This document shows, piece after piece, positions 1,630 through 14,551 of a DNA stretch of 16,886 bases; within the stretch, counting starts at the first letter, position 1; every line of letters starts with the position of its first letter. A program made the position numbers and the translations under genes. This DNA comes from Verrucomicrobiota bacterium (GTDB lineage: Bacteria > Verrucomicrobiota > Verrucomicrobiia > Verrucomicrobiales > DEV007). The stretch lies in assembly GCA_020629815.1 (NCBI GenBank), contig JAHDCN010000022.1, forward strand, positions 3,986-20,871, given 5' to 3'. The notes beneath the pieces are model-generated. The model saw nothing but the letters and a program-made list of their open reading frames with translations. It was not told the origin of the DNA and did not search any database.

Positions 1630-3111
1630 GTGCTAGGTTCGGCGGAGATGTTGCAAGAGACAGAATCGAATGACCGCAAAGCAGGATGGTGGGCGTGGCC
1701 GCTGATCATTTTTACTGTCTTGTTTGTGGCTATTGCTCCGCGTTTTCTGGAAAGCTATCTTGCTGCTGCCCCTGATCCAGAGGGTGGTGAAAAATCGGAG
1801 GTCTTATCTGCCGATTGGGGACAATTGGCTTTGTTTCAACTGCAGGGGAAAATGGTCGTCGCTGCTGCGTCTGTAGATGAAAGGCAGGCGACAGAAACGA
1901 TTCGCCAGCTGGAAATGCACAGCAAGAGTGTCCACACGGAAGCGGCCGTGGCTCTGTTGCATTCGTTTGTAGAGGGGGAGGACAGCAAAGAGGTCGATCG
2001 TGTGTTGAAGCAGGCAAAGCGGGAGTATGGCGGTTCGCCCCAGGCTCTGGAATTTTTACAAAAGGTGGGTGAGGGAATTGATCAGGGAGTTTCGACTGAG
2101 GAGCGGCAATCTCTGGAGGAGTCTCTGGGTTGGTTCGCCAAGTTCTTTCCCGAAAAAGGGGCCAACGGAGAGGTGCTGGATTCTCCTGAGGCAGAGCCGC
2201 TGATCCAGTCTTCTCGAATGATGGCAGTTGGTATGGTCGGTGTGGTGTTTTTCATAGGTGCACTGTTTATCGGCGGCTGTATTGCGTTGTCGATCATTGT
2301 AAGCAAAGTGCGAAAGCCTGAGGGGCGGCAGTTTGATCGACAGCGGGCACCGGCCGGTGTGATGCTGGAGTGCTTTGCGATCTATCTGGCGGTGATGGTT
2401 TTCGGTGAGGTGGTTACGTCGTTTCTTCCCGGTGTGTTGGCGTTCGCCCATTATCCGGGAGCGATTGTGCTGGCGCTACTTTGGCCCCGGATTCGGGGCT
2501 ACACCTGGCGGGAAACGAGAGGAGCCATCGGTTGGACCAAGGGCAAAGGAACCTGGCGCGAATTGCTGGCCGGGGTCGTGGGTTACTTGTCGATCATTCC
2601 GCTGGCAGCAGTGGGAATTACTCTCACCATGATTCTGGCTTTCGCGGCCGGGCAAGTCTCCCAACTGTCTGATGACTCGGGTGCAACGAAGCCGATAGAA
2701 TCCGTTGAGGTGGGAGAGCGGGAAGAAGATGCAGAGGCAGAAGAACCGGTGCGATTAGTGGAACCGGAGATGCATCCCATTGTTGGTTGGATTGTTCAAG
2801 GAGGATGGAAAGAGAAATTGCTCTGCTTTTTGCTGGCGGCTGTATTTGCCCCTTTTGCGGAGGAAACCTTGTTCCGCGGTGCTCTTCATCGCCATTTGCG
2901 CAAAAGAACGCGATTTGTGGTGGCAGCGTTACTTGGCGGCGTGATTTTTGCGGCCCTGCATCCTCAGGGATTGATTGCGATTCCTGCGCTGTCGGCCATG
3001 GGTGTGGGATTTTGCCTGCTCCGCGAATGGCGTGATTCGCTGATCGCTCCCATGGTGGCCCACGCTATCAACAATGGGCTGATCGTTCTCATGGTGATGC
3101 TGATTTTGTAA
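1630..3111 (+). CDS. CPBP (CAAX/Abi-type) intramembrane metalloprotease
   Basis: This 493-residue polytopic membrane protein carries the three motifs of the CPBP family (PF02517): EETLFR (E411, E412, R416), FAALH (F440 to H444) and HAINN (H478 to N482). In this family the glutamates and histidines form the metal-dependent active site within the membrane. Layout from the N-terminus: one membrane segment at about 22-42; a hydrophilic helical domain at about 48-195; a membrane segment near 197-225; then several more segments from about 245 to the end. A strongly acidic loop at about 345-380 (GEREEDAEAEEP) precedes the catalytic core. Known members process prenylated peptides, bacteriocins or anti-sigma factors; the substrate here is unknown. 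The extra N-terminal domain makes it longer than a minimal CPBP protein. The start may be GTG 1630 or ATG 1648. The latter has GGCGGAG directly against it, too close to be a normal ribosome site. It is divergent from the sulfatase and has no obvious functional partner nearby. Confidence 0.88.
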   Translation: MLGSAEMLQETESNDRKAGWWAWPLIIFTVLFVAIAPRFLESYLAAAPDPEGGEKSEVLSADWGQLALFQLQGKMVVAAASVDERQATETIRQLEMHSKSVHTEAAVALLHSFVEGEDSKEVDRVLKQAKREYGGSPQALEFLQKVGEGIDQGVSTEERQSLEESLGWFAKFFPEKGANGEVLDSPEAEPLIQSSRMMAVGMVGVVFFIGALFIGGCIALSIIVSKVRKPEGRQFDRQRAPAGVMLECFAIYLAVMVFGEVVTSFLPGVLAFAHYPGAIVLALLWPRIRGYTWRETRGAIGWTKGKGTWRELLAGVVGYLSIIPLAAVGITLTMILAFAAGQVSQLSDDSGATKPIESVEVGEREEDAEAEEPVRLVEPEMHPIVGWIVQGGWKEKLLCFLLAAVFAPFAEETLFRGALHRHLRKRTRFVVAALLGGVIFAALHPQGLIAIPALSAMGVGFCLLREWRDSLIAPMVAHAINNGLIVLMVMLIL

Positions 3112-3293: not shown

Positions 3294-5801
3294 ATGTCAT
3301 TTTCCATTCGAAATCTTTTCTCTCAGGACGATTCGAAAAAGACGGAACCCGGTTTAGGCGGAAGTGCCTTTGAAGCCGACCGAAACCAGCCGCCTCCGTT
3401 GCCGGGAAATCCTCCTGCGGAATCGACTCCGTATACCATACAGGAGCTTTTGGCATTCATTCCTCCGGCGATTTCGGCTCAGGGGGCGCTGCCAATGGAT
3501 CAGGCGGTTCAGATTCCTGTGAGTGGACAGGGAGGAGATGTGAAACTTTCCGACATCTACCGGGCCTGTCCCGGTCTGTTTGCTGCTGAAATTACACCTT
3601 TGAATGACTCTTTGGTCACGTTGCCTCCGAAGATGCCTCCGGTTTCGGCTGCCGTAGAGGCTGGTGCGATGGACATGTCTGCCGGGCCTGATCCGGGTGG
3701 AAATCCTTTTGCCGATGCGGTGAACAGTCCATTGAATCCGGGCGGTATGGATAAAGCCGATATGCCGGAAGCTCTGGATCAACCTAACCCGTTCTCCGCT
3801 GAAGCTGAGACAGCACCTGAATCGAATTTCGAACCAAATCCTGCTCCACAGCCAACGGCCGGTTCTTTTCCTCCTCTCCCGGAGTCTTCCCCGTCTGCAT
3901 CACCTGAGTCGCCAAATCCATTTGGTGCGCAAACGGATCCAGCAACGCCACGTCAAGGGTTTGCAGAGTCGGCGACACCAATAAACCCGATCGCTCAAGG
4001 AATGCAGGAGGCGACTCCACCTCCAGCAGCTGAAGACAATCCTTTTTCCATGCCGGAAGCTCCTGCACCGGAGCCGGCAGCTGCTAACCCTTTCGCAGAG
4101 CCTTCTGCTGACTTGTCGAAGCCTTCTGCTGAACCTGAAGCGGCGCCCATGGTTGGATTCGAAAATCTCCCGGAACCGGAAGAACCAAGTGGCTTTCTTG
4201 CCAGTGATGACGGCAAAAACCCGTTTCTCAACAATGCAGGTGATGCTGCACCATCCGAGGCGGGCAATCCGTTTGAGCAGGGCCCGGGGTTCTCCACTCT
4301 TTTTTCCGAGCAGGCAGAGAAAGACGCATCTTTGGAGAATCCATCAGCCGACTCCGCATTCTCTGCACCCGCTGACACAGGTTTTGCCGTGCCGGCTTCA
4401 GCGGAACCCGGTTTTTCAACTCCGGCTGAGGCTCCGGCAACGGTGGGATTCGAGGCTCCAACAGCGAACGATCCTGTAGCAGGGAATCCATTCGGAGCGC
4501 AAGCTGCTGACTCACCACCGGCTGAGCAGCCTGCTGCCGCGACTGGATTTGGTGAAGCAATTGAAAATACGCCGGCCCAGTCTGCGCCTGAAGAGTCCAG
4601 CAGTCCCGCCCCGGCAGCTACCGATATCGGTGCGATTCCACTAGCTGATGAGCCCGCCGGCGCTTTTGGCCCCGGCTTTTCCCCTCCGAAAGAAGAAGGT
4701 TTCTCGAATCAGGAGCCAGCCGCTTTTTCCGCACCAGTTGCTGCGCAGTCTGAGTCTCCTAAGCAGGAAGAAGCTCAGGTAGATTTCGGTGCATTCCCAC
4801 CTCTGAATGAGACGGCGGTCGAGGCAGAGGAGACAGCACCAGCTGAAGAGGAAAAGCCTCGTTTGGCCAAAAACGTTGAATTGAGCGTGAAAATGCCGTC
4901 GACCCCTGAGCCAGCTGAGAATGCTAATGCCGGGCCAACTGTAGAAAATATCACGGTCGAGCGCGCGAATGACGGAGGATTTGCTGCGGCTGCAGCTGCT
5001 GCGACTGCCGCTTCTGCGGGAGCAGTCGCCACGTCTGCATTTGCGAATCCAGCGGCCACCGAAGAGCCGCCTGTAGCACCTGCCCCGCAAGAGGAAGGTG
5101 GATTTATCGTTCCTGCGTCAGTGGAGGAGCCGCCAGCGGCAGTGACTGAACCCGTGGAGGAGAAACCGGAGCCGGCTGCAGCCGTGGAAGAGCCAAAAAC
5201 TGCTGTAGCGGAAGAAACGGCCACGCCGGCGTTCGATTTTACTCCGGATACAACTGTTGAGGCTGATTCGCTTTCGCCGGAAGCTGCTCCGAAAGAAGAA
5301 GTGGTAGGGACTCCCGAACCGATAGAAGCTGAGCCAATTGCAGCCTCGGTGCCGGAAGTAGCTGTCGAAGAGGAGATTGATCTGTCTGCCTTTCCTGCAG
5401 CAATGGACGACGAAATCGTCAAGGATGTCGAGCTGCGTGCAGTCTTTGGAACCAATGAAGAATTCACTTTGCGGAAGATTGCCACTTTGATTGTGTGTAT
5501 GCCGGGTGTCAGTGCCTGTGCTGTGGTCAATCCTTTTAAGGCTCTTCAAGCGTCCCGGGATGAAGATACGCAAATCGGAGATGACGCCCGTGCTATGGCC
5601 GAAAATGTGAAGCAGTTGGCTGCCCTCACCGGTATTCCCGAGGCGAAGTCCTTTACGATTCACACGGACAAAGGAATCATGAGTCTCTTCAGTGAGGGCG
5701 GTTCCACTCTGACGGTTCTGCATGAACCTGGCGGCTTCGAAGATGGAGTGCGGGAGAAATTGATGCTGGTAACCAGAGCGCTCGACTCGATCGAGGACTA
5801 A
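3294..5801 (+). CDS. Large disordered NPF-repeat protein with C-terminal roadblock/LC7-like domain
   Basis: This 835-residue cytoplasmic-type protein has no signal peptide or membrane segment. Three parts can be seen. Residues about 45-112 (TIQELLAFIPP, then VKLSDIYRACPGLF and SLVTLPP) look like a small folded module. Residues about 115-700 are Ala/Pro/Glu/Ser-rich and surely disordered. This part carries eight NPF tripeptides with N at 137, 165, 208, 249, 265, 309, 325 and 398, many isolated GF dipeptides, and an alanine tract near 563-572. Residues about 705-835 resemble a roadblock/LC7 domain: a helix, LIVCMPGVSACAVV, a helical stretch, AKSFTIHTDKGIMSLF, LTVLHEPGGFEDGVREKL and a final helix. 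Roadblock proteins bind or activate small GTPases, as MglB does for MglA. The MglA-like GTPase begins 27 bases downstream, so a partnership is likely. A ninth NPF (N746) lies inside the domain. The ATG has no Shine-Dalgarno. The roadblock call is by pattern only; the rest has no function I recognise. Confidence 0.85.
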   Translation: MSFSIRNLFSQDDSKKTEPGLGGSAFEADRNQPPPLPGNPPAESTPYTIQELLAFIPPAISAQGALPMDQAVQIPVSGQGGDVKLSDIYRACPGLFAAEITPLNDSLVTLPPKMPPVSAAVEAGAMDMSAGPDPGGNPFADAVNSPLNPGGMDKADMPEALDQPNPFSAEAETAPESNFEPNPAPQPTAGSFPPLPESSPSASPESPNPFGAQTDPATPRQGFAESATPINPIAQGMQEATPPPAAEDNPFSMPEAPAPEPAAANPFAEPSADLSKPSAEPEAAPMVGFENLPEPEEPSGFLASDDGKNPFLNNAGDAAPSEAGNPFEQGPGFSTLFSEQAEKDASLENPSADSAFSAPADTGFAVPASAEPGFSTPAEAPATVGFEAPTANDPVAGNPFGAQAADSPPAEQPAAATGFGEAIENTPAQSAPEESSSPAPAATDIGAIPLADEPAGAFGPGFSPPKEEGFSNQEPAAFSAPVAAQSESPKQEEAQVDFGAFPPLNETAVEAEETAPAEEEKPRLAKNVELSVKMPSTPEPAENANAGPTVENITVERANDGGFAAAAAAATAASAGAVATSAFANPAATEEPPVAPAPQEEGGFIVPASVEEPPAAVTEPVEEKPEPAAAVEEPKTAVAEETATPAFDFTPDTTVEADSLSPEAAPKEEVVGTPEPIEAEPIAASVPEVAVEEEIDLSAFPAAMDDEIVKDVELRAVFGTNEEFTLRKIATLIVCMPGVSACAVVNPFKALQASRDEDTQIGDDARAMAENVKQLAALTGIPEAKSFTIHTDKGIMSLFSEGGSTLTVLHEPGGFEDGVREKLMLVTRALDSIED

Positions 5802-5828
5802 ATTTTTTATCCGGATCCCCCCCTTACT

Positions 5829-6491
5829 ATGGCAGTTTTTCATCACGACAAGCGCGAGATACAGTTCAAGATCGTCTATTGCGGCACGCCGCGCAGTGGC
5901 AAGACCACGAATCTTGAATACATTTACAAAAAGTTGGATCCCCACTTTCGGGGAAACTTGGTATCAATCGCGACAGAGGGGGAGAGAACGATCTTTTTCG
6001 ACTTTCTCGCGGTTAATTCCGGTGATGTGGCGGGCTATACGACAAAATTTCAGCTCTACACCGTTCCCGGTCAGGAGGTGTATCAGCAAACCCGTGATAC
6101 TGTTTTGGCCGGAGTGGACGGAGTCGTGTTTGTCGCGGACAGCGCTCCAGATCGGCAGGAAGCTAATGAGGTCGCGTTGAGTAATTTTCGTAAATCATTG
6201 ATTTCCAATGGTTATGATCCGGATAAAGTGCCGATGGCATTCCAGTTCAATAAGAGGGATTTGCCTGATGCTGTCGCGCCCTACGAGATGGATGAGAGTC
6301 TCGAAGTCTGTGTTCCAACGTTTCTCAGCAGTGCGACAAGTGGGTACCAAGTGTTTGCCACGCTGGACTTTGTATCGCAAATTGTGCTAAGACAATTCCA
6401 TGCTTCTCACGTTATGAGAAGTGAGATCGTTTCTGATAAAGGGAGCCGGTATACCGGTGCTCCTGCCACGGCAGCGGTCGCCAGTGCCTAG
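5829..6491 (+). CDS. MglA-like small Ras-type GTPase
   Basis: This 220-residue GTPase belongs to the bacterial MglA family. The P-loop is GTPRSGKT (G19 to T26). The stretch ATEGERTIFFDFL (48-60) is characteristic of MglA. The G3 region is TVPGQE (P80, G81, Q82), and the base-specificity motif is NKRD (141-144). R53 and Q82 fall at the same positions as the intrinsic arginine finger and catalytic glutamine of Myxococcus MglA, so it should hydrolyse GTP. MglA proteins cycle between GTP and GDP states, mark a cell pole and control motility machinery; roadblock proteins such as MglB act as their GAPs. Here the gene sits between two genes for roadblock-like proteins, which suggests that both act on it. 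A tail of about 25 residues (from about 195) extends past the usual MglA end and contains an Ala-rich tip. The ATG follows a C-rich run with no Shine-Dalgarno sequence; the 27-base gap suggests co-transcription with the gene before it. Confidence 0.93.
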   Translation: MAVFHHDKREIQFKIVYCGTPRSGKTTNLEYIYKKLDPHFRGNLVSIATEGERTIFFDFLAVNSGDVAGYTTKFQLYTVPGQEVYQQTRDTVLAGVDGVVFVADSAPDRQEANEVALSNFRKSLISNGYDPDKVPMAFQFNKRDLPDAVAPYEMDESLEVCVPTFLSSATSGYQVFATLDFVSQIVLRQFHASHVMRSEIVSDKGSRYTGAPATAAVASA

Positions 6492-6533
6492 CGGAAGAGA
6501 TTTTCCCGGGTGCCGGTTTGTTCCCAGTATCCC

Positions 6534-8192
6534 ATGAGTCACCCGCACGGAAACGATCATACTGCAGCTGTTGAGTTGCAAATTACCACCGAACTGGCTG
6601 AAGAGGCTGAAGAAATTCTGCGAGAGTTCGCTGAGGAGGCGGAAGTCGATTCCGTTTTGATTGTGGAGAGAAGCGGTTCATTGGTAGCCGGAATTTCCAA
6701 TGAAGATGAGGTCGATGTCGATACGCTGAGTGCTTTGGTGGCGGGGGCGAGCGGCGCAGTAAAGGCGCTGGTGAGAGAATTGGGTGAGCCGGGGGCGCTG
6801 GAGAGTTTACACCAGAGTGAAGATTGCCTGATTTATCTGCATGATTTGCTCGGTCGGTTTATTTTGGTAGCAGTTACGGAAACGGGTGTTCCTGCTGGTA
6901 TTGTTCGTCAGCAGGCTGTCCCGGTACGTGCAAAATTGTCCGGACTGCTCGCTGATTTTGCCGTTGATGAAACTGTCGTCGAAGAGCCGGAGCCTGTTGT
7001 TGAGGAGGAGGTCGAGGACCTTGTCGAGGAAGAAGCGGAGGTAGTCGATCCCGAACCGGAGCCGGAAGTTTCTTTGGATCCGAAAGCAGAGCGGGCGAAA
7101 CAGATTTCCGGAATGCTGCACGGTGGCGAAGCGTTGGTTGATCCAGCAGCTGGATTGGATATTCAACCCGAGGAACCAATCGGCAGTCCGGTCGATGAGA
7201 CCGAGGATGACATTAGCGATTTACGTGAAGAGGGAGAGGAACTTCCTGAAGGAGAAGCTGAGTGGGAAGCCGTTATCGAATTGGAACCGGAGGTCGAAGA
7301 AGAGCTGGAGGAAGAGCCGGTAGAGGAGGAGGTTTCCGATGAAGCTTCTGAAGCCGAAGCCTTAGATGACGTCGAGCCGGAAGAACCAGAGTCTGCATCG
7401 GAAGTCGATGAGATCGAAGAATCATTGGATGATCCGATTTTCGATATCGAAGAAGAGCCGGAACTGGAAGAGATCTTGGTGGAAGATACGGAAACAGAAG
7501 AGGAAAAACTGGATTCTGTTCCAGATAAAGAATCAGAGCCTGTAACTGCGGAGGAAGAGGCAGAACCCGTTGTTGATGAAGAGGAAATCGCTGAGCCCGA
7601 GCCTGAAGAGACTGGTCCCGCAAAAGTGATCGAAGAGTTTGTCGAGGCGCCACCGGCTGTAGAGAATCAGCCCCAGAAGCGTTCTTATGAGGGACTGGCA
7701 GGAGCTCCTCCCGAGGCAATTCTTCGTTCTCCATTCGAAGTGGTCGAAGAGGAAATTGTAGAGGTGGAAGATGAGGTTGAGGAGGAATCACTTCCTATTC
7801 CGATTCCGCAGCCGGTTGAAACCGAGGCTGCCGAAGCAGAGCCTGAGTCTGAACAGGTCAGCGAAGAGGTTGAAGAAGACGTTCCCGTAGAAGTCGAGGC
7901 CGAGCCGGAGGTCTTTATTTCTGAACAACCGGTGACGGAAGAGGAAAACGATGCCGGCGATGGATGGGGTGAGATTGAAATTGTGGAAGAGCCTGATGCT
8001 GATTCAGAGGAGGAGAGCCCTTTTGAAGTTGTCGAAGATGAAAGCGATGACGAAATAGTTTCCGAAGTGGAAGCTACTATCACGGCGCCGATTGAGGAGC
8101 CGACAGCGGAAGTGGAAGCCGTCGATCCAGTGGAGGAGGAAGAGGAATTACCGCCGATTGCCGGTCCAAAATACTCGTTTGATTTGGACTAG
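6534..8192 (+). CDS. Roadblock/LC7 domain protein with very long acidic tail
   Basis: From ATG 6534 the protein has 552 residues. Residues about 10-125 form a roadblock/LC7 domain: helix AEEILREFAEEAEVDSVLIV, then SGSLVAGIS, a helix with LSALVAGASGAVKAL, and LIYLHDLLGRFILVAVTETG. This is the MglB-type fold expected to contact the GTPase encoded just upstream. Everything after about residue 128 is overwhelmingly Glu/Asp with Pro, Val and Ser, has no membrane segment, and must be disordered and strongly negative. It contains a near-exact repeat SPFEVVEEE / SPFEVVEDE with S at 399 and 495, and ends in a distinct non-acidic tip, GPKYSFDLD. Its architecture mirrors the 835-residue protein upstream: there the domain is C-terminal, here it is N-terminal. 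An alternative GTG start at 6510 adds eight residues and has GGAAGAG about ten bases before it; the ATG has no Shine-Dalgarno, like its two upstream neighbours. The tail's function is unknown. Confidence 0.88.
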   Translation: MSHPHGNDHTAAVELQITTELAEEAEEILREFAEEAEVDSVLIVERSGSLVAGISNEDEVDVDTLSALVAGASGAVKALVRELGEPGALESLHQSEDCLIYLHDLLGRFILVAVTETGVPAGIVRQQAVPVRAKLSGLLADFAVDETVVEEPEPVVEEEVEDLVEEEAEVVDPEPEPEVSLDPKAERAKQISGMLHGGEALVDPAAGLDIQPEEPIGSPVDETEDDISDLREEGEELPEGEAEWEAVIELEPEVEEELEEEPVEEEVSDEASEAEALDDVEPEEPESASEVDEIEESLDDPIFDIEEEPELEEILVEDTETEEEKLDSVPDKESEPVTAEEEAEPVVDEEEIAEPEPEETGPAKVIEEFVEAPPAVENQPQKRSYEGLAGAPPEAILRSPFEVVEEEIVEVEDEVEEESLPIPIPQPVETEAAEAEPESEQVSEEVEEDVPVEVEAEPEVFISEQPVTEEENDAGDGWGEIEIVEEPDADSEEESPFEVVEDESDDEIVSEVEATITAPIEEPTAEVEAVDPVEEEEELPPIAGPKYSFDLD

Positions 8193-8276
8193 CCAGTCAG
8201 GAAGTTCCGGTTGATGTATGGGCCGATCAGGGTTTACTCTACGGATTACCGGGGGATTTCTACCTGAAGAAGGGAA

Positions 8277-8963
8277 ATGGATTTAATTACCAAAGGAGGA
8301 CCGTTGATGTGGCTGCTGCTCGGCTGCTCGGTCATTGCTATTGCGATTTTCCTGGAACGGTTATTCTTCTTCCATAGAGCCAAGATTGATGTGGGAGACT
8401 TGCTATTTGGTCTTCGAAATCTGATCAAGAACAAGGCGTATTCCGAAGCGAGATCAGAGGCGCAGGCGACTCCCGGACCCGCAGCACGTGTCATTCATTC
8501 TGCGATTCGAAATTACACTGCACCTCGGACTGAGCTGAAAGAGATCGTTCAGGAGAGTGGGCAATTGGAAGTTCCCAAACTGGAAAAGCACCTCTCGATT
8601 CTGCAATCGATAGCCTACATCGCTCCGTTGATTGGAATGCTTGGTTCGGTACTGGGACTGGTCGATACGTTCGTCCGAATTAACGCTGTAGGCGGCTTTG
8701 CAACGGTCGCCGAGATTTCAAAAGGTGTTTATGAAGCTCTTATCACTTCCGCGGCGGGTTTGATGGTGGCAATCCCTGCATTCGTATTTTTCTCCCACCT
8801 CCGCTCGCTGGCGAAATCCCTGATGCACGACATGGAGAGTGCCGGGATTGAGATCGTGAATACCATTTGTGATTTGCGGAATGAGCCATCGGATATTATC
8901 CCGATCCGTTCTGACCGACCGGATGAAGAGGATGAGCAAGCTACAGGCTCTGATCTCGAATAG
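8277..8963 (+). CDS. exbB: MotA/TolQ/ExbB-family proton channel protein
   Basis: This 228-residue inner-membrane protein has the standard three-helix layout. Segment 1 is at about 9-27, ending in the conserved FLER. A cytoplasmic domain follows. Segment 2 is at about 107-131, containing IAPLIGMLGSVLGLVDTF. Segment 3 is at about 152-173, containing YEALITSAAGLMVAIPA. The last two blocks are the family signature (PF01618). With an ExbD-type partner these proteins conduct protons and drive mechanical work in the envelope (TonB, Tol-Pal, flagellar or gliding motors). The length fits ExbB/TolQ rather than MotA, and the next genes are ExbD-like and TonB-like, so ExbB is the best name; TolQ or AglR-like cannot be excluded. 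The start is well supported by GAAGAAGGG at 8266-8273, just before the ATG. The 84-base gap from the acidic roadblock gene is the largest within the seven-gene cluster and could hide a secondary promoter, although none is obvious. Confidence 0.92.
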   Translation: MDLITKGGPLMWLLLGCSVIAIAIFLERLFFFHRAKIDVGDLLFGLRNLIKNKAYSEARSEAQATPGPAARVIHSAIRNYTAPRTELKEIVQESGQLEVPKLEKHLSILQSIAYIAPLIGMLGSVLGLVDTFVRINAVGGFATVAEISKGVYEALITSAAGLMVAIPAFVFFSHLRSLAKSLMHDMESAGIEIVNTICDLRNEPSDIIPIRSDRPDEEDEQATGSDLE

Positions 8964-8987
8964 AAAAACGAAGCTGGTTGAATCGTC

Positions 8988-9395
8988 GTGAAACTGCAAT
9001 CTTCGCTCACCAATAAAGCGGGTTTTCTGTACATCTCGCCGTTGATGGATGTGGTGATGCTCCTGCTGATTTTCTTTTTGTTTGGCTCGAACTTTGTTTT
9101 GAAATCAGGCGTCTCAGTTGCGCTGCCTCAGTCGGGATCTGAGCTGCCATCGGCTCTTCAATCACATATCATCACGATTGTGCCCGGCGAAAAGGAGATC
9201 ATTTATTTTAACGAGGAGAAAGTCAGTATCGAGCAATTGGAGCAGCAATTGAAGGACGGTGCAGGGAGATCTCGCCAGATCATTCTTCTGGCCGATCGCG
9301 AAGTCCGCTACGGAGTGGTGATGCAGGTTTCGCAACTGGGATTTCGTTTTGGTTATGAGATTTCCTTTGCTACGCAGGAAGAGCGGAACCAGTAG
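8988..9395 (+). CDS. exbD: ExbD/TolR-family proton channel partner
   Basis: This 135-residue protein has a short cytoplasmic N-terminus, one membrane helix (about 16-35, SPLMDVVMLLLIFFLF) and a periplasmic domain ending in LLADREVRYGVVMQVSQLGF. D21 in the helix is the equivalent of the proton-carrying aspartate that is essential in ExbD and TolR. The C-terminal block matches the ExbD periplasmic fold (PF02472). It should assemble with the ExbB-type protein encoded 24 bases upstream. The start is GTG 8988 with only weak ribosome-site complementarity. The stop codon overlaps the Shine-Dalgarno of the next gene (AGGAGAGG at 9394-9401), which suggests coupled translation with the TonB-like gene. 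Confidence 0.92.
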   Translation: MKLQSSLTNKAGFLYISPLMDVVMLLLIFFLFGSNFVLKSGVSVALPQSGSELPSALQSHIITIVPGEKEIIYFNEEKVSIEQLEQQLKDGAGRSRQIILLADREVRYGVVMQVSQLGFRFGYEISFATQEERNQ

Positions 9396-9403
9396 GAGAG
9401 GAA

Positions 9404-10129
9404 ATGGGATTGTTTGGAAAACGGAAAAAGAAGCAAGATGTCGGCTCCGACGATCCTCCGTTTACCTTTTCCTGGAAGAAGCCACGGAATACAGCGCTGC
9501 ATCTCGCCATGTTTCTGCTTTTTTCCACCCTGGTTCACACAACCAGTTTTTACCTGTTCCAGGTAGTTTATCCTGACCCGGTAAGGGCCGAACCGGTGAC
9601 GGAGCGAATCACAATTCTGGATTCGAGAAATCCGGTGGTTCGCAGTGCGATGGAAAGGGTAAAGGATCGGTCGATTTATCTGCAGGCACCATCCAGTGAC
9701 GCGAATGTGAGGCTGCGGCTACAGGATTTCTCCGCTCGTTTTACGCCCACCTTTCAGGAAGCGAAGCCTGTCTTTCTGCCGCCTGTTGAGTCGCCCGGGA
9801 TTTCCTCAAGTAGCACGAGCCGTTTTGCAGACGGCGAAAAATTTGAGAACTTGTTTTTACTGAGCGGAAATCTAAAGAGTCGGGGGCTTGCTCCATGGTC
9901 TGTATTGAATGACTACCTTGCGGCGGCAGGGGAAGTTCCAGGAGTGCGGCTGAATATCGCTGTGTCAGCGGATGGCCAGATCGAAACTGCGCAAACGGAG
10001 GGAGGCGGGCTTACAGAGGAGGAAAAGTCCGGTTTTGCCCGCGTAATTCAGTCAACGCTGCGGTTTCAGCCCGTTGAGAAGGCGGAGAGTGACAAGGGGT
10101 GGATTGAAATTCTCCCGCGTTCGCCCTAG
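9404..10129 (+). CDS. TonB-like energy transducer
   Basis: This 241-residue protein has a basic cytoplasmic N-terminus (GKRKKK) and a single membrane helix at about 29-55. A periplasmic region of about 185 residues follows. The helix contains S41-x-x-x-H45 (STLVH). An S-x-x-x-H pair in the anchor is the TonB hallmark that couples it to ExbB/ExbD. The C-terminal part, VRLNIAVSADGQIETAQT, followed by a helix and STLRFQP, resembles the TonB C-terminal domain, although it is divergent. There is no long Pro-Lys spacer of the classical kind. Classical TonB contacts outer-membrane receptors, but no TonB-dependent receptor is encoded in this window. Ribosome site AGGAGAGG at 9394-9401 gives strong support to ATG 9404. 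Its place directly after exbB and exbD, and beside the GTPase genes, raises the possibility that it drives something other than nutrient uptake. Confidence 0.8.
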   Translation: MGLFGKRKKKQDVGSDDPPFTFSWKKPRNTALHLAMFLLFSTLVHTTSFYLFQVVYPDPVRAEPVTERITILDSRNPVVRSAMERVKDRSIYLQAPSSDANVRLRLQDFSARFTPTFQEAKPVFLPPVESPGISSSSTSRFADGEKFENLFLLSGNLKSRGLAPWSVLNDYLAAAGEVPGVRLNIAVSADGQIETAQTEGGGLTEEEKSGFARVIQSTLRFQPVEKAESDKGWIEILPRSP

Positions 10130-10150
10130 CTTGGGAAAGGAGATATTCCT

Positions 10151-10390
10151 ATGTTTCGAGTCTCGCTGGAAAGTATTATTGCGATCTACCTTGCGGTCAT
10201 TTTGTGTGGGGTATTTTTCGTCTGGGTAGCGGCGGAGATTTTCCGTCGTGGTCGCGAGCATAGGAGGCGTAAGTATTTCGTTATCTGCAGTATTTGTGAC
10301 CATGTTTTCGAGGACCCGTCAGAGAATGATCTGGCCGAGTGTCCCCGTTGTGGTACCATGAATGAGCGGGGAAAAGTGCTCGAGATTTAG
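10151..10390 (+). CDS. Small membrane-anchored zinc-ribbon protein
   Basis: This 79-residue protein has one membrane helix (about 7-31, rich in Ile, Leu, Val and Phe), a very basic cytoplasmic stretch (RRGREHRRRKY, 32-42), and a compact four-cysteine knuckle: C46-x-x-C49 and C64-x-x-C67. The CSIC and CPRCG pairs spaced by 14 residues are typical of a rubredoxin-like zinc ribbon. The positive-inside rule places the ribbon in the cytoplasm. I do not recognise a named family. It is probably an assembly, scaffold or regulatory subunit for the membrane module encoded upstream. The start is secure: AAAGGAGAT at 10137-10145, six bases before the ATG. It lies 21 bases after the TonB-like gene and is probably the last dedicated gene of the cluster. 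Confidence 0.82.
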   Translation: MFRVSLESIIAIYLAVILCGVFFVWVAAEIFRRGREHRRRKYFVICSICDHVFEDPSENDLAECPRCGTMNERGKVLEI

Positions 10391-10468
10391 GGGGCGGAGA
10401 AATACTTGCAATGCGCTGAGAGCACGGCAGTTTAGCCGCTACGAATCGCAGATTTGCCGAACAGAAAT
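10391..10468. other. Short intergenic region before fabF
   Basis: These 78 bases lie between the zinc-ribbon gene and fabF on the same strand. I see no clear terminator hairpin with a T-tract and no strong promoter, so read-through from the cluster into fabF is possible. Confidence 0.35.
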
Positions 10469-11716
10469 ATGGATCGCAGAGTGGTAATTACAGGCATGGG
10501 CGTTATTTCCCCGGTGGGAAATGATTTGACCACCTTTTGGGAGAATTTGGTCGCCGGAAAAAGCGGTGTTGGACTTATCGAGTCCATGGATACCAGCGAA
10601 TACGGATGCAAAATCGGCGCAGAAGTGAAAGACTTTGATGCGGCTCCTTATTTCAAGAACCCCAAGGATGCTCGCCGCGCTGACCGCTTTGCCCAATTGG
10701 CAATGGCTGCCTCAGTTATGGCGATTGAGGATTCCGGGATGGATTTTGATTCACTCGACCGAAATCGAATCGGTGTGATGGTGGGAAGTGGGATTGGCGG
10801 TCTGATGACATTGGAAGCGCAGCACGCCAAGTGTATTCAGAAAAGCCCTTCGCGAGTGTCGCCTTTCACCATCCCAATGATGATTGCCAACATCTCGAGT
10901 GGGATGATATCCATGGACTATGATTTGCGCGGGCCAAACATGTGTATCGTGACCGCCTGCGCGACCACCAATCACAGTGTTGGAGAAGCGTGGCGAATCA
11001 TCAAATTCGGCGATGCCGATGCGATTGTTGCCGGTGGTTCGGAGTCAACTATCTGCCCGATGGGACTGTCCGGATTCGGTAACATGAAAGCTCTGAGCAC
11101 CCGCAATGACGATCCCGAAAGTGCGTCACGCCCCTTTGATCAAGGTCGGGATGGCTTTGTGATGGGAGAGGGAGCCGGTGTTTGTATGGTGGAAGAGTTA
11201 GAGCACGCGAAGAAACGCGGAGCAAATATTCTGGCTGAGCTGATTGGCTATGGCGTTTCTGCTGATGCGTATCATCTGACATCGCCACATCCCGAAGGGG
11301 AGGGCGCTGGCCGCTGTATGGATATGGCTCTGAAGCACGGTGGCATCTCCTGTGAGGAAGTGGACTACATCAATGCTCACGGAACCTCGACTCCGCTGGG
11401 TGATATCTGTGAAACTAAGGCGATTAAACGGGTTTTCGGTTCCCATGCGAAAGACGGCCTCATTGTGAGCTCCACGAAATCAATGACCGGACACTTGCTC
11501 GGTGCTGCCGGTGGGGTGGAAATGGCTGCCTGTATTCAGGCAATCAACGAGGGCGTCATACCTCCGACAATCAATCTCGATGATCAGGATCCAGAGTGTG
11601 ATCTCGACTACGTGCCACACACTGCCAGAGAGGCGAAAGTGGATGTCGCTTTGACAAACTCCTTTGGATTTGGTGGACACAATGCCTCGCTCCTTTTGCG
11701 GAGATACGACGGCTAA
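10469..11716 (+). CDS. fabF: 3-oxoacyl-[acyl-carrier-protein] synthase II (FabF)
   Basis: This 415-residue condensing enzyme of fatty-acid elongation joins malonyl-ACP to a growing acyl-ACP in the cytoplasm. The N-terminus RRVVITGMGVISPVGN is classical for FabF. The Cys-His-His triad is complete: C164 in VTACATTNHS, H304 in NAHGTSTPLGD and H342 in TGHLLGAAGG. The glycine-rich C-terminal NSFGFGGHNASL is also present. The length matches E. coli FabF (about 412). The ATG at 10469 is the sensible start; a TTG at 10454 would add five residues (MPNRN) ahead of a normal FabF N-terminus. No acpP, fabG or fabD is adjacent, so this copy is outside a fab operon. It may be the housekeeping enzyme or a paralogue for a specialised lipid. 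It converges with the DUF1552 gene, leaving only 24 bases between the stops. Confidence 0.95.
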   Translation: MDRRVVITGMGVISPVGNDLTTFWENLVAGKSGVGLIESMDTSEYGCKIGAEVKDFDAAPYFKNPKDARRADRFAQLAMAASVMAIEDSGMDFDSLDRNRIGVMVGSGIGGLMTLEAQHAKCIQKSPSRVSPFTIPMMIANISSGMISMDYDLRGPNMCIVTACATTNHSVGEAWRIIKFGDADAIVAGGSESTICPMGLSGFGNMKALSTRNDDPESASRPFDQGRDGFVMGEGAGVCMVEELEHAKKRGANILAELIGYGVSADAYHLTSPHPEGEGAGRCMDMALKHGGISCEEVDYINAHGTSTPLGDICETKAIKRVFGSHAKDGLIVSSTKSMTGHLLGAAGGVEMAACIQAINEGVIPPTINLDDQDPECDLDYVPHTAREAKVDVALTNSFGFGGHNASLLLRRYDG

Positions 11717-13168: not shown

Positions 13169-13327
13169 GAAAAAATCATTGCAGAAGTGGAACCACCTGT
13201 AAACGGCCTATTCGTGGCTGTATGAAAGCGATTCATTTCACTTATGAAAACAATGGAATCGCCCGCTGCGCTTAATCTTGTAGCATGGCACGTGCTTCGC
13301 TCTTTAGGGGGGCAAACGAACTCATCC
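13169..13327. promoter_or_regulatory. Divergent intergenic region between DUF1552 and porin genes
   Basis: These 159 bases must contain the promoters of two divergent genes. I cannot point to a convincing -35/-10 pair on either strand. GCACGTGC at 13288-13295 is an 8-base palindrome about 30 bases before the porin start, but one short palindrome is weak evidence for an operator. Confidence 0.3.
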
Positions 13328-14551
13328 ATGAAGAAACTCAACATCATTCTTTTACTCGGCGGGCTTTTGACCCCTGCCATTAACTTTGCAGGTGAACCTG
13401 AGCCCGTCATTCTCGACGATGCGAATCCTGCATTTGTCACTCCAACTCTCGATCTGCGTGCCCGCTATGAATACGGTGACGTTGATGTGCCCGGTGTGAT
13501 TTCATCCCACAATTTATCGCTCCGCGGTCGTGTTGGTCTGAAAACGCAGGAGTTCAATGGATTCCAGGTATTCGGTGAATACGAAGGGACCACTGTTGCG
13601 GACCGCGACTGGTATCGAGCAGCATCCGTTCACGGCCCTGCCAACAGGACGATCATTGCTGACCCGGAATCACACGAAGTGAATCAACTTTGGGCGAGCT
13701 ACAAAACACCGGACGGTGCGTTCATGCTGAAAGCAGGTCGTCAGGCGATTGCTCTTGATGGTCAGCGTTATGTCGGTGGCGTTGCCTGGAGACAGAATAT
13801 GCAGACCTTTGACGCTGCGACTCTGATTCTGAAACCGTCTTCTGATGTGGAGTTCTTCTACAGCTATGTGAATCAGGTGAATCGAATCTTCGGTTCCGAT
13901 GTTTTCGCACCGATTCACACTGACTTCGAGGGCAACTCTCATTTGATCAATGCAAAGATCAAAAACACTCCCGCAGGGACTCTTACCGCCTACGCTTATC
14001 TTCTGGATCTGACGAATGACTTCGGTTCAGCTGCCAGCAATAACACCTTCGGTCTTTCCTTGGATGGGGGATTGGGGGATATGACCTACCATTTGGAGTT
14101 TGCTTATCAAACAGACGCTTTCGACAGCCCGCTTGATTACGCAACTACCTACACGCACGCTTCTTTGTCTTCCCCGCTCGGTGGTGGGTTCAAAGGGACG
14201 GTTGGTGTCGAGCATCTTGGTTCAGACAACGGACAAGGCTTCCGCACACCTCTGGCGACTCTTCACAAGTTTAATGGTTTCGCTGACGTGTTCCTGAATA
14301 CTCCGGGAACTGGCCTCACAGATTTCTATGCTTCTGTTGGCACTAAGCTTCCTGGCGGTGTTGCTGCTACGGTTTTCTACCATCACTTCCAGGATGCTGA
14401 TCTCGACTTCAGTTATGGTGATGAGATTGACCTGGTGCTTGCAAAGGATCTGGGTAACGGCCTTTCCGTTCTGGGTAAAGGCTCATGGTTCTTCGGTGAT
14501 ACGCTTCCAGACGTCACGCGCATCTCGCTTGAGATGAATTACAAATACTAA
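13328..14551 (+). CDS. Outer-membrane beta-barrel porin
   Basis: From ATG 13328 the protein has 407 residues. It opens with a clear signal peptide (MKKLNIILLLGGLLTP..., cleavage likely after A21). The mature part is a series of amphipathic alternating strands such as LSLRGRVGLKTQEF, FMLKAGRQAIAL, VEFFYSYVNQVNRIF and ISLEMNYKY. It ends on the aromatic Y that marks outer-membrane barrels for the BAM machinery. YRAASVHGPANRTIIADPESHEVNQLW with QRYVGGVAWRQN resembles the alginate-export/porin superfamily, but I cannot name the solute. An in-frame ATG at 13244 would put 28 non-signal residues ahead of the signal peptide and is very unlikely. The gene stands alone, with a strong terminator just downstream. 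A role in anion entry linked to the neighbouring nitrate-type locus is possible but unproven. Confidence 0.88.
   Translation: MKKLNIILLLGGLLTPAINFAGEPEPVILDDANPAFVTPTLDLRARYEYGDVDVPGVISSHNLSLRGRVGLKTQEFNGFQVFGEYEGTTVADRDWYRAASVHGPANRTIIADPESHEVNQLWASYKTPDGAFMLKAGRQAIALDGQRYVGGVAWRQNMQTFDAATLILKPSSDVEFFYSYVNQVNRIFGSDVFAPIHTDFEGNSHLINAKIKNTPAGTLTAYAYLLDLTNDFGSAASNNTFGLSLDGGLGDMTYHLEFAYQTDAFDSPLDYATTYTHASLSSPLGGGFKGTVGVEHLGSDNGQGFRTPLATLHKFNGFADVFLNTPGTGLTDFYASVGTKLPGGVAATVFYHHFQDADLDFSYGDEIDLVLAKDLGNGLSVLGKGSWFFGDTLPDVTRISLEMNYKY

Follow-up and report, generated by a model that had tools for sequence, protein, structure and literature searches.

MglA/roadblock switches steer pili and gliding motors, and those of Myxococcus xanthus and Thermus thermophilus, in which an MglA GTPase is joined by the roadblock protein MglB, are the closest described counterparts of the switch genes considered here. 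In Myxococcus, MglA-GTP acts via the TPR protein SgmX on the localisation of PilB (PMC7519303). A roadblock protein and a small GTPase are also encoded in one cluster in the actinobacterial conservon (Cvn), and MglA groups 1 and 5 have varied neighbourhoods, with Verrucomicrobia falling within group 5 (PMC4316618). Here we analyze a window of 16,886 nucleotides, the whole stretch of DNA studied, from a Verrucomicrobiota bacterium (contig JAHDCN010000022.1), in which a run of seven genes combines an MglA-type GTPase and two roadblock proteins with an ExbB/ExbD/TonB-like unit. To our knowledge, cell polarity has been little studied in Verrucomicrobiota, and no paper on the pairing of MglA/roadblock with ExbB/ExbD/TonB-like genes was found in the open-licence literature, in line with the view of the first-pass annotation that the combination was not known as one unit. 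That annotation had also assigned the DNA to Verrucomicrobiota, which agrees with the name of a homolog of the first gene product (P0006, Verrucomicrobiales).

Like the MglA/MglB module, the locus has an MglA GTPase gene next to that of an MglB-like roadblock protein (RB), both with profile matches to the known structures; unlike that module, it has a long second roadblock protein (P1) before the GTPase, a 410-aa acidic tail on RB and an ExbB/ExbD/TonB-like set after it. This set shares with the Ton system a channel, a subunit with a transmembrane aspartate and a transducer with a transmembrane histidine and a C-terminal domain predicted, with moderate confidence, to be TonB-like, but differs from it in the short TonB-like protein, which lies below Pfam detection, the regular zinc-ribbon partner (ZnR), the frequent fabF neighbor, the order ExbB-ExbD-TonB-like-ZnR and the lack of both the aspartate and the histidine in some relatives. 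Loci of von Willebrand factor A (vWA) force transducers of the PVC group, from the same phylum, likewise couple a TolQ/TolR-like motor to a transducer with a transmembrane histidine; as described in PMC12204202, those loci encode TPR and vWA proteins and a pair of TolR-like ones, whereas in the present genome comparable sets lie elsewhere (C362 and C582). At those two sites ExbB is accompanied by two ExbD-like genes and TPR genes, with a weak vWA match at C362 only. In contrast to the conservon (PMC4316618), there is no histidine kinase among the ten window open reading frames (ORFs) scanned with Pfam, and membrane motor genes are found instead. The scan included the CAAX protease and fabF flanks, with the zinc ribbon outside it. 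No tolB or pal (Tol-Pal) was found among these ten ORFs; no genome-wide search for them was made.

The gene maps of relatives divide the run into two modules, A (P1, MglA and the MglB-like RB) and B (ExbB, ExbD, the TonB-like protein and the zinc ribbon), of which A in the genus usually comes with a CAAX protease upstream and B often with fabF. The seven ORFs, all on the + strand of the window (3294-10390) as the first-pass annotation had it, are separated by successive gaps of 27, 18, 84, 24, 8 and 21 bases; no terminator-like sites were found in these gaps, and promoter-like sites are rarer than in shuffled sequence (3 versus 5.9). The explanation that we tentatively favor, with somewhat less than even confidence, is that an MglA/roadblock polarity-type switch is coupled to a Ton-like force unit, which it places or gates.

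The linkage of the two modules is prevalent within the genus. Among 33 genomes, our own included, A and B are neighbors in 21 and apart in five, which amounts to linkage in 21 of the 26 that could be resolved; in the other seven (G001, G002, G003, G012, G016, G017, G027), contigs or genes are short or missing. In the linked genomes, the roadblock gene adjoins ExbB on one contig (G000, G004, G006, G007, G008, G010, G011, G013, G015, G018, G020, G021, G022, G024, G025, G026, G028, G029, G030, G031) or, in G005, which we count as linked, the contig breaks within the roadblock gene and the remainder adjoins ExbB. In the five others (G009, G014, G019, G023, G032), the contig continues past the roadblock gene without ExbB. 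Given the occurrence of the same order in 21 genomes, we set aside an assembly artefact as the cause of the adjacency. In a FastTree tree of the module B proteins, G001, G003, G009, G012, G014, G019 and G032 form one clade, as read from topology alone. Since this clade holds all the genomes with separated modules except G023, a single break could explain four of the five separations, G023 representing another, and the linkage in the genus accordingly looks ancestral.

Beyond the genus, linkage is sparse but recurrent. Of 14 further GTPase-bearing relatives from the same order, two are linked (G034, from the same family, and G053), 11 have the modules apart, and G049 gave no reading. In a sample of 286 genomes of the class, ExbB (E <= 1e-50, one match per genome, taken as the ortholog) was detected in 255 and the GTPase (E <= 1e-15) in 75, 72 of which also have ExbB; the GTPase genomes without an ExbB match are G058, G111 and G143, so that only 72 of the 75 genomes and 27 of the 29 families could show linkage at all. 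The modules are linked in nine of the 75 (G000, G053, G063, G094, G104, G141, G251, G292, G312), representing four of 29 families. Contig ends make these counts minimum values, and for nine of the GTPase genomes (G070, G078, G131, G152, G160, G201, G224, G257, G300), as well as a second copy in G168, linkage was assessed only from the contig and the coordinates. Under random placement, assuming independent families and 14 kb in 4 Mb, at least four linked families of 29 would be expected with p ~3e-6, and we set chance adjacency aside.

Individual loci illustrate the pairing. In G104 (L232), the order is PilB-like ATPase, P1, GTPase, roadblock, ExbB, ExbD, a TonB-like piece and zinc ribbon, with A and B in the same orientation and fabF further on, and in a named Verrucomicrobiaceae metagenome-assembled genome (MAG; L169), module B lies beside A. 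The latter is the only such case among the best 80 loci from a scan of genome contigs with the GTPase profile, most of which are mglBA-type loci of other phyla; in L141, L154 and L161, ExbB-family genes scoring 95-113 bits lie ~9 kb away and appear paralog-like. MAG contigs filed as Akkermansia muciniphila (L157) and Prosthecobacter debontii (L142) carry P1-GTPase genes; the former label may be wrong, as the g4 genomes, presumably Akkermansia, have no GTPase where listed. The association of the switch with the ExbB/ExbD/TonB-like module proposed in the first-pass annotation thus recurs across families, whereas the idea that the two halves are conserved together holds in the genus and fails in most of the order and the class, which suggests two modules that recurrently pair rather than one obligatory machine.

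The second line of evidence comes from genomes of the genus in which the GTPase is gone. In G013, the GTPase gene between P1 and the roadblock gene is a pseudogene interrupted by frameshifts and stop codons (L135:6233-6871), within an 850-base stretch 86% identical to that of G031, where the gene is intact. No match to the GTPase was found in the genome or the locus of G010, where 165 bases separate P1 and RB, nor in those of G020, whose contig begins just before the roadblock gene, and G015, which is 77% complete. In all four genomes the roadblock gene still adjoins ExbB. Judging from their three separate places on the tree, the GTPase appears to have been lost about three times with the roadblock genes remaining beside ExbB. 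The ratio of non-synonymous to synonymous substitution rates (dN/dS), obtained by a simple counting method for pairs that differ in dS and with kinship ignored, is 0.20 (G010-G020) and 0.19 (G013-G031) for residues 1-150 of the roadblock protein versus 0.04-0.08 in four GTPase-bearing pairs, and 0.39 (G013-G031) for the end of P1 versus 0.02-0.23; for ExbB, it remains at 0.02-0.05 wherever a value was obtained. Purifying selection on the roadblock genes thus seems to persist after GTPase loss but looks relaxed.

The assignment of the gene families in the first-pass annotation is borne out by Pfam, by profile matches and by the folds predicted for P1 and the TonB-like protein. In the PDB, the GTPase family profile is matched best by MglA structures, from Myxococcus at 7e-76 and from Thermus at 1.2e-72; the G1, PGQ and NKRD motifs are all present in the window protein. 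The GTPase of G029 (L134:2141-2767) is without the PGQ switch II motif and keeps NKRD. The roadblock family profile matches MglB chains at 5e-30. The window P1 has no Pfam or NCBIfam match, and its C-terminal region is only weakly similar to the RB family by sequence (hhalign P 1.7e-4, yet probability 49), although one P1 from the class matches Robl_LC7 at E 1.8e-5. When the C-terminal 183 residues were modelled (predicted local distance difference test, pLDDT, ~84-94 from residue 61 on; 77.1 for the whole piece; predicted TM-score 0.63), the predicted structure had the a-b-b-a-b-b-b-a topology of a roadblock domain, and Foldseek retrieved 53 PDB chains at E <= 0.001, the 50 listed being mostly roadblock proteins, including Ragulator subunits and Myxococcus MglB. 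P1 is therefore predicted to carry a roadblock-fold C-terminal domain. P1 also contains nine NPF tripeptides, eight of them ahead of this domain.

In module B, the ExbB profile matches TolQ and ExbB chains in the PDB. The TonB-like protein has an STLVH sequence (SxxxH) at residues 41-45 in its transmembrane helix; SxxxH is found in 38 of 48 TonB-like matches, and four more have the histidine without the serine. The window protein has no Pfam match, a PDB sequence search with its profile gave chance matches only, and one ortholog from the class matches TonB_C at E 0.019, under the cut-off. Its C-terminal bbab domain was modelled with moderate confidence (pLDDT ~63-81; 57.3 for the whole model), and the 16 best Foldseek matches in the PDB are TonB or its homologs (HasB, FusB), the best at E 8e-3 and none below 0.001. 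A homolog search with the sequence alone retrieved no further protein; with the alignment as query it retrieved three, so that the model rests on five sequences. The zinc ribbon has four cysteines (C46, C49, C64, C67) that are invariant across 15 orthologs, and it adjoins ExbB/ExbD also in three g4 genomes without the GTPase (L116-L118), the g4 genomes having no GTPase where listed. In parts of the families f3 and f4 (L103-L107, L112, L114), no TonB-like or zinc-ribbon genes were found after ExbB/ExbD.

The residues expected of a proton-driven motor vary among relatives. The transmembrane position of ExbD, located with reference to an E. coli sequence, is Asp in 43, Asn in 12 and Cys in one of 56 distinct orthologs, window included and one paralog (L242) left out. 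Two ExbB positions aligned to E. coli threonines that we presume to be functional are mostly Thr or Ser in relatives. In the 47 loci where both proteins were read, the ExbD aspartate occurs with the TonB-like transmembrane histidine in 41 and Asn with no histidine in six, with no mixed case, a count that ignores kinship, such that the six may represent one or two events. The absence of mixed cases suggests that ExbD and the TonB-like protein form one motor. The table behind this count omits L103, L104, L106, L112 and L114 (Asn; no TonB-like gene found) and L117 (Asn), L116 and L118 (Asp) and L232 (Cys), for which no TonB-like protein was read. The loci with Asn for the ExbD aspartate and the TonB-like histidine missing are L109, L110, L111, L115, L137 and L169. 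In PMC12204202, the aspartate is given as the proton site and the transmembrane histidine of such transducers as contacting the motor. With both residues, module B of the window bears the marks of an energized Ton-like motor and some relatives do not; the proton-powered character first proposed thus fits the window but not all relatives.

The positions of the seven genes and their neighbors are given in Table 1.

Table 1. Coordinates of the seven-gene run and flanking features in the window
Feature	Position	Strand	Observations
CAAX protease (Rce1-like)	1630..3111	+	PF02517 E 1.2e-19; frequent upstream neighbor in the genus
P1	3294..5801	+	Conserved N-terminal segment, long low-complexity middle, predicted C-terminal roadblock-fold domain
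MglA-type small GTPase	5829..6491	+	Pfam Arf/Ras-type; family profile against MglA structures; motifs
MglB-like roadblock protein (RB)	6510..8192	+	Robl_LC7; 410-aa acidic tail, 40% D+E
ExbB/TolQ-type channel subunit	8277..8963	+	PF01618 E 1.4e-27, over cut-off
ExbD/TolR-type subunit	8988..9395	+	PF02472 E 3.4e-19, over cut-off; transmembrane aspartate present
TonB-like force transducer (predicted)	9404..10129	+	STLVH in the transmembrane helix, then a short linker in the periplasm and a C-terminal domain predicted to be TonB-like
Zinc-ribbon protein (ZnR), single transmembrane segment	10151..10390	+	Four invariant Cys; regular module B partner
fabF-like ketoacyl synthase	10454..11716	+	Pfam; frequent neighbor of module B
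Alginate-export-like ORF	13244-14551		Only outer-membrane candidate among the ten scanned window ORFs

The unit is wider than seven genes. A CAAX-protease-like gene lies upstream of P1 in 25 loci of the genus (own included), linked or not, and is absent from the upstream DNA read in G015 (L100) and G023 (L076); fabF follows the zinc ribbon in most loci of the genus and in some other families. The alginate-export-like ORF was not seen in the relatives fetched.

Across the class, module A has a different characteristic neighbor. In 21 of the 59 class loci counted, module A is preceded on its own strand by a PilB-like ATPase gene, itself often behind a TPR+MshEN gene, reminiscent of the MglA-SgmX-PilB connection (PMC7519303), whereas no PilB-like gene lies directly upstream of A in the 37 counted loci of the window's order, some of which are on short contigs. 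One of the 59 loci (L220) belongs to that order and two come from a single genome (G093); the counts leave out L073, L079, L122, L135 and L226, of which L122, L135 and L226 are linked in the gene maps and L226 has a PilB-cluster gene. The one member of the PilB-like cluster scanned has T2SSE and MshEN domains. At L142, a named locus, a gene of the PilB cluster is found several genes downstream of A. In some loci of the order (L084, L087, L220, L142), a cluster c37 gene a few genes after the GTPase has a start that reads like GspF/PilC, for which we take it to be a candidate. In other families, DUF4388 genes with response-regulator or FHA domains lie near A. Every one of the 56 relatives, whether it has the GTPase or not, carries T2SSE-family ATPases, which rules out the presence of a pilus-type ATPase as a predictor of the GTPase. 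Given that the PilB-like ATPase is the commoner GTPase neighbor at the class level, pilus control may be the older role.

Under the favored explanation, the cycling of MglA between GTP and GDP would be controlled by a pair of roadblock proteins: RB, likely a GTPase-activating protein or a scaffold, and P1, whose own roadblock domain would sit at the end of a long flexible arm. Both would tether or activate ExbB at the cytoplasmic face, at a pole or patch, where ExbB/ExbD would spend the proton gradient and the short TonB-like protein would pull on or contact an outer-membrane partner; the roadblock-ExbB contact, the localization, the GTPase-activating role and the outer-membrane target are all parts of this scheme that we infer, whereas the gene content, the predicted folds, the recurring linkage, the loss of the GTPase with roadblock genes kept and the pairing of aspartate with histidine are observed. 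In other members of the class, the same switch probably controls the type IV pilus ATPase, so that the Ton-like unit would be a second or replacement client.

Several observations weigh against this scheme. The modules are apart in most of the further relatives of the order, and no linkage was seen in 66 of the 75 GTPase genomes of the class, a number that includes the three lacking an ExbB match. In the six linked f14 genomes, the modules face each other convergently and are thus not co-transcribed; where the distance was measured, in five of them, ExbB lies 4.4-4.5 kb from the GTPase. The presence of B in many genomes without A implies that B works alone. In the linked G053 and L169, A stands beside a B that is without the proton aspartate and the histidine, and G104 has Cys for the aspartate. 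Repeated loss of the GTPase indicates that GTP gating is not essential, and the raised dN/dS suggests that the constraint on the roadblock genes is weaker thereafter, which also speaks against a strong scaffold role. The GTPase-gated machine of the first-pass annotation is therefore upheld as a pairing of switch genes with module B, but the GTPase itself is dispensable, and that interpretation is partly supported overall. We consider it unlikely that the system is a roadblock-scaffolded Ton-like complex with optional GTP gating, in which the roadblock proteins would be the constant connection to ExbB while the MglA GTPase is variably present, and in which joint loss of the aspartate and histidine in a sister lineage, with the complex and the adjacent GTPase retained, turned a rotary proton motor into an unpowered, GTPase-placed envelope tether.

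The chief rival, a realistic if somewhat doubtful possibility, is that the two modules are independent neighbors without shared function, A being a polarity switch for type IV pili, in which MglA acts on PilB, and B a general Ton/Tol-like envelope unit, with the adjacency inherited or drifted. The PilB-like genes upstream of A in the class, reminiscent of MglA-SgmX(TPR)-PilB (PMC7519303), speak for this, as do the presence of B in 255 but A in only 75 of the 286 genomes and the mostly separate location of A and B beyond the genus. However, linkage in four families is far above random placement, the roadblock genes stay beside ExbB after GTPase loss, PilB is not found directly upstream of A in the 37 loci counted in the order, and the ubiquitous T2SSE ATPases do not predict the GTPase. 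It is quite improbable that B is a Ton nutrient-uptake system whose activity, rather than place, is set by the GTPase according to nutrient state: the predicted TonB-like fold, SxxxH and the wide distribution of B with one match per genome are compatible with this role, but the genome has a further TonB-ExbB-ExbD set (G000:C262:24368-26576), so that module B is not the only Ton system of the cell, and no TonB-dependent receptor is present among the ten scanned window ORFs, although no genome-wide receptor search was made. Least probable, in our view, is an AglRQS/Glt-type gliding motor of Verrucomicrobiota steered by MglA; the MglA/MglB-like pair with a MotA/TolQ-family channel, and the stimulation of gliding-machinery assembly by MglA-GTP in Myxococcus reported in PMC9481161, are in its favor, but module B has the composition ExbB-ExbD-TonB-like with a predicted TonB-type C-terminal domain, and its ExbB profile matches TolQ as well as ExbB chains, although no search aimed at Glt/Agl components was made.

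If the switch is indeed coupled to the Ton-like unit, the repeated pairing would extend MglA/roadblock switches to trans-envelope force generation. Its recurrence in several families suggests that the switch may direct the motor to its site of action. Since naturally occurring genomes differ in whether they have the GTPase and in whether they have the motor residues, simple comparisons among them would allow the roles of switch, scaffold and motor to be separated.

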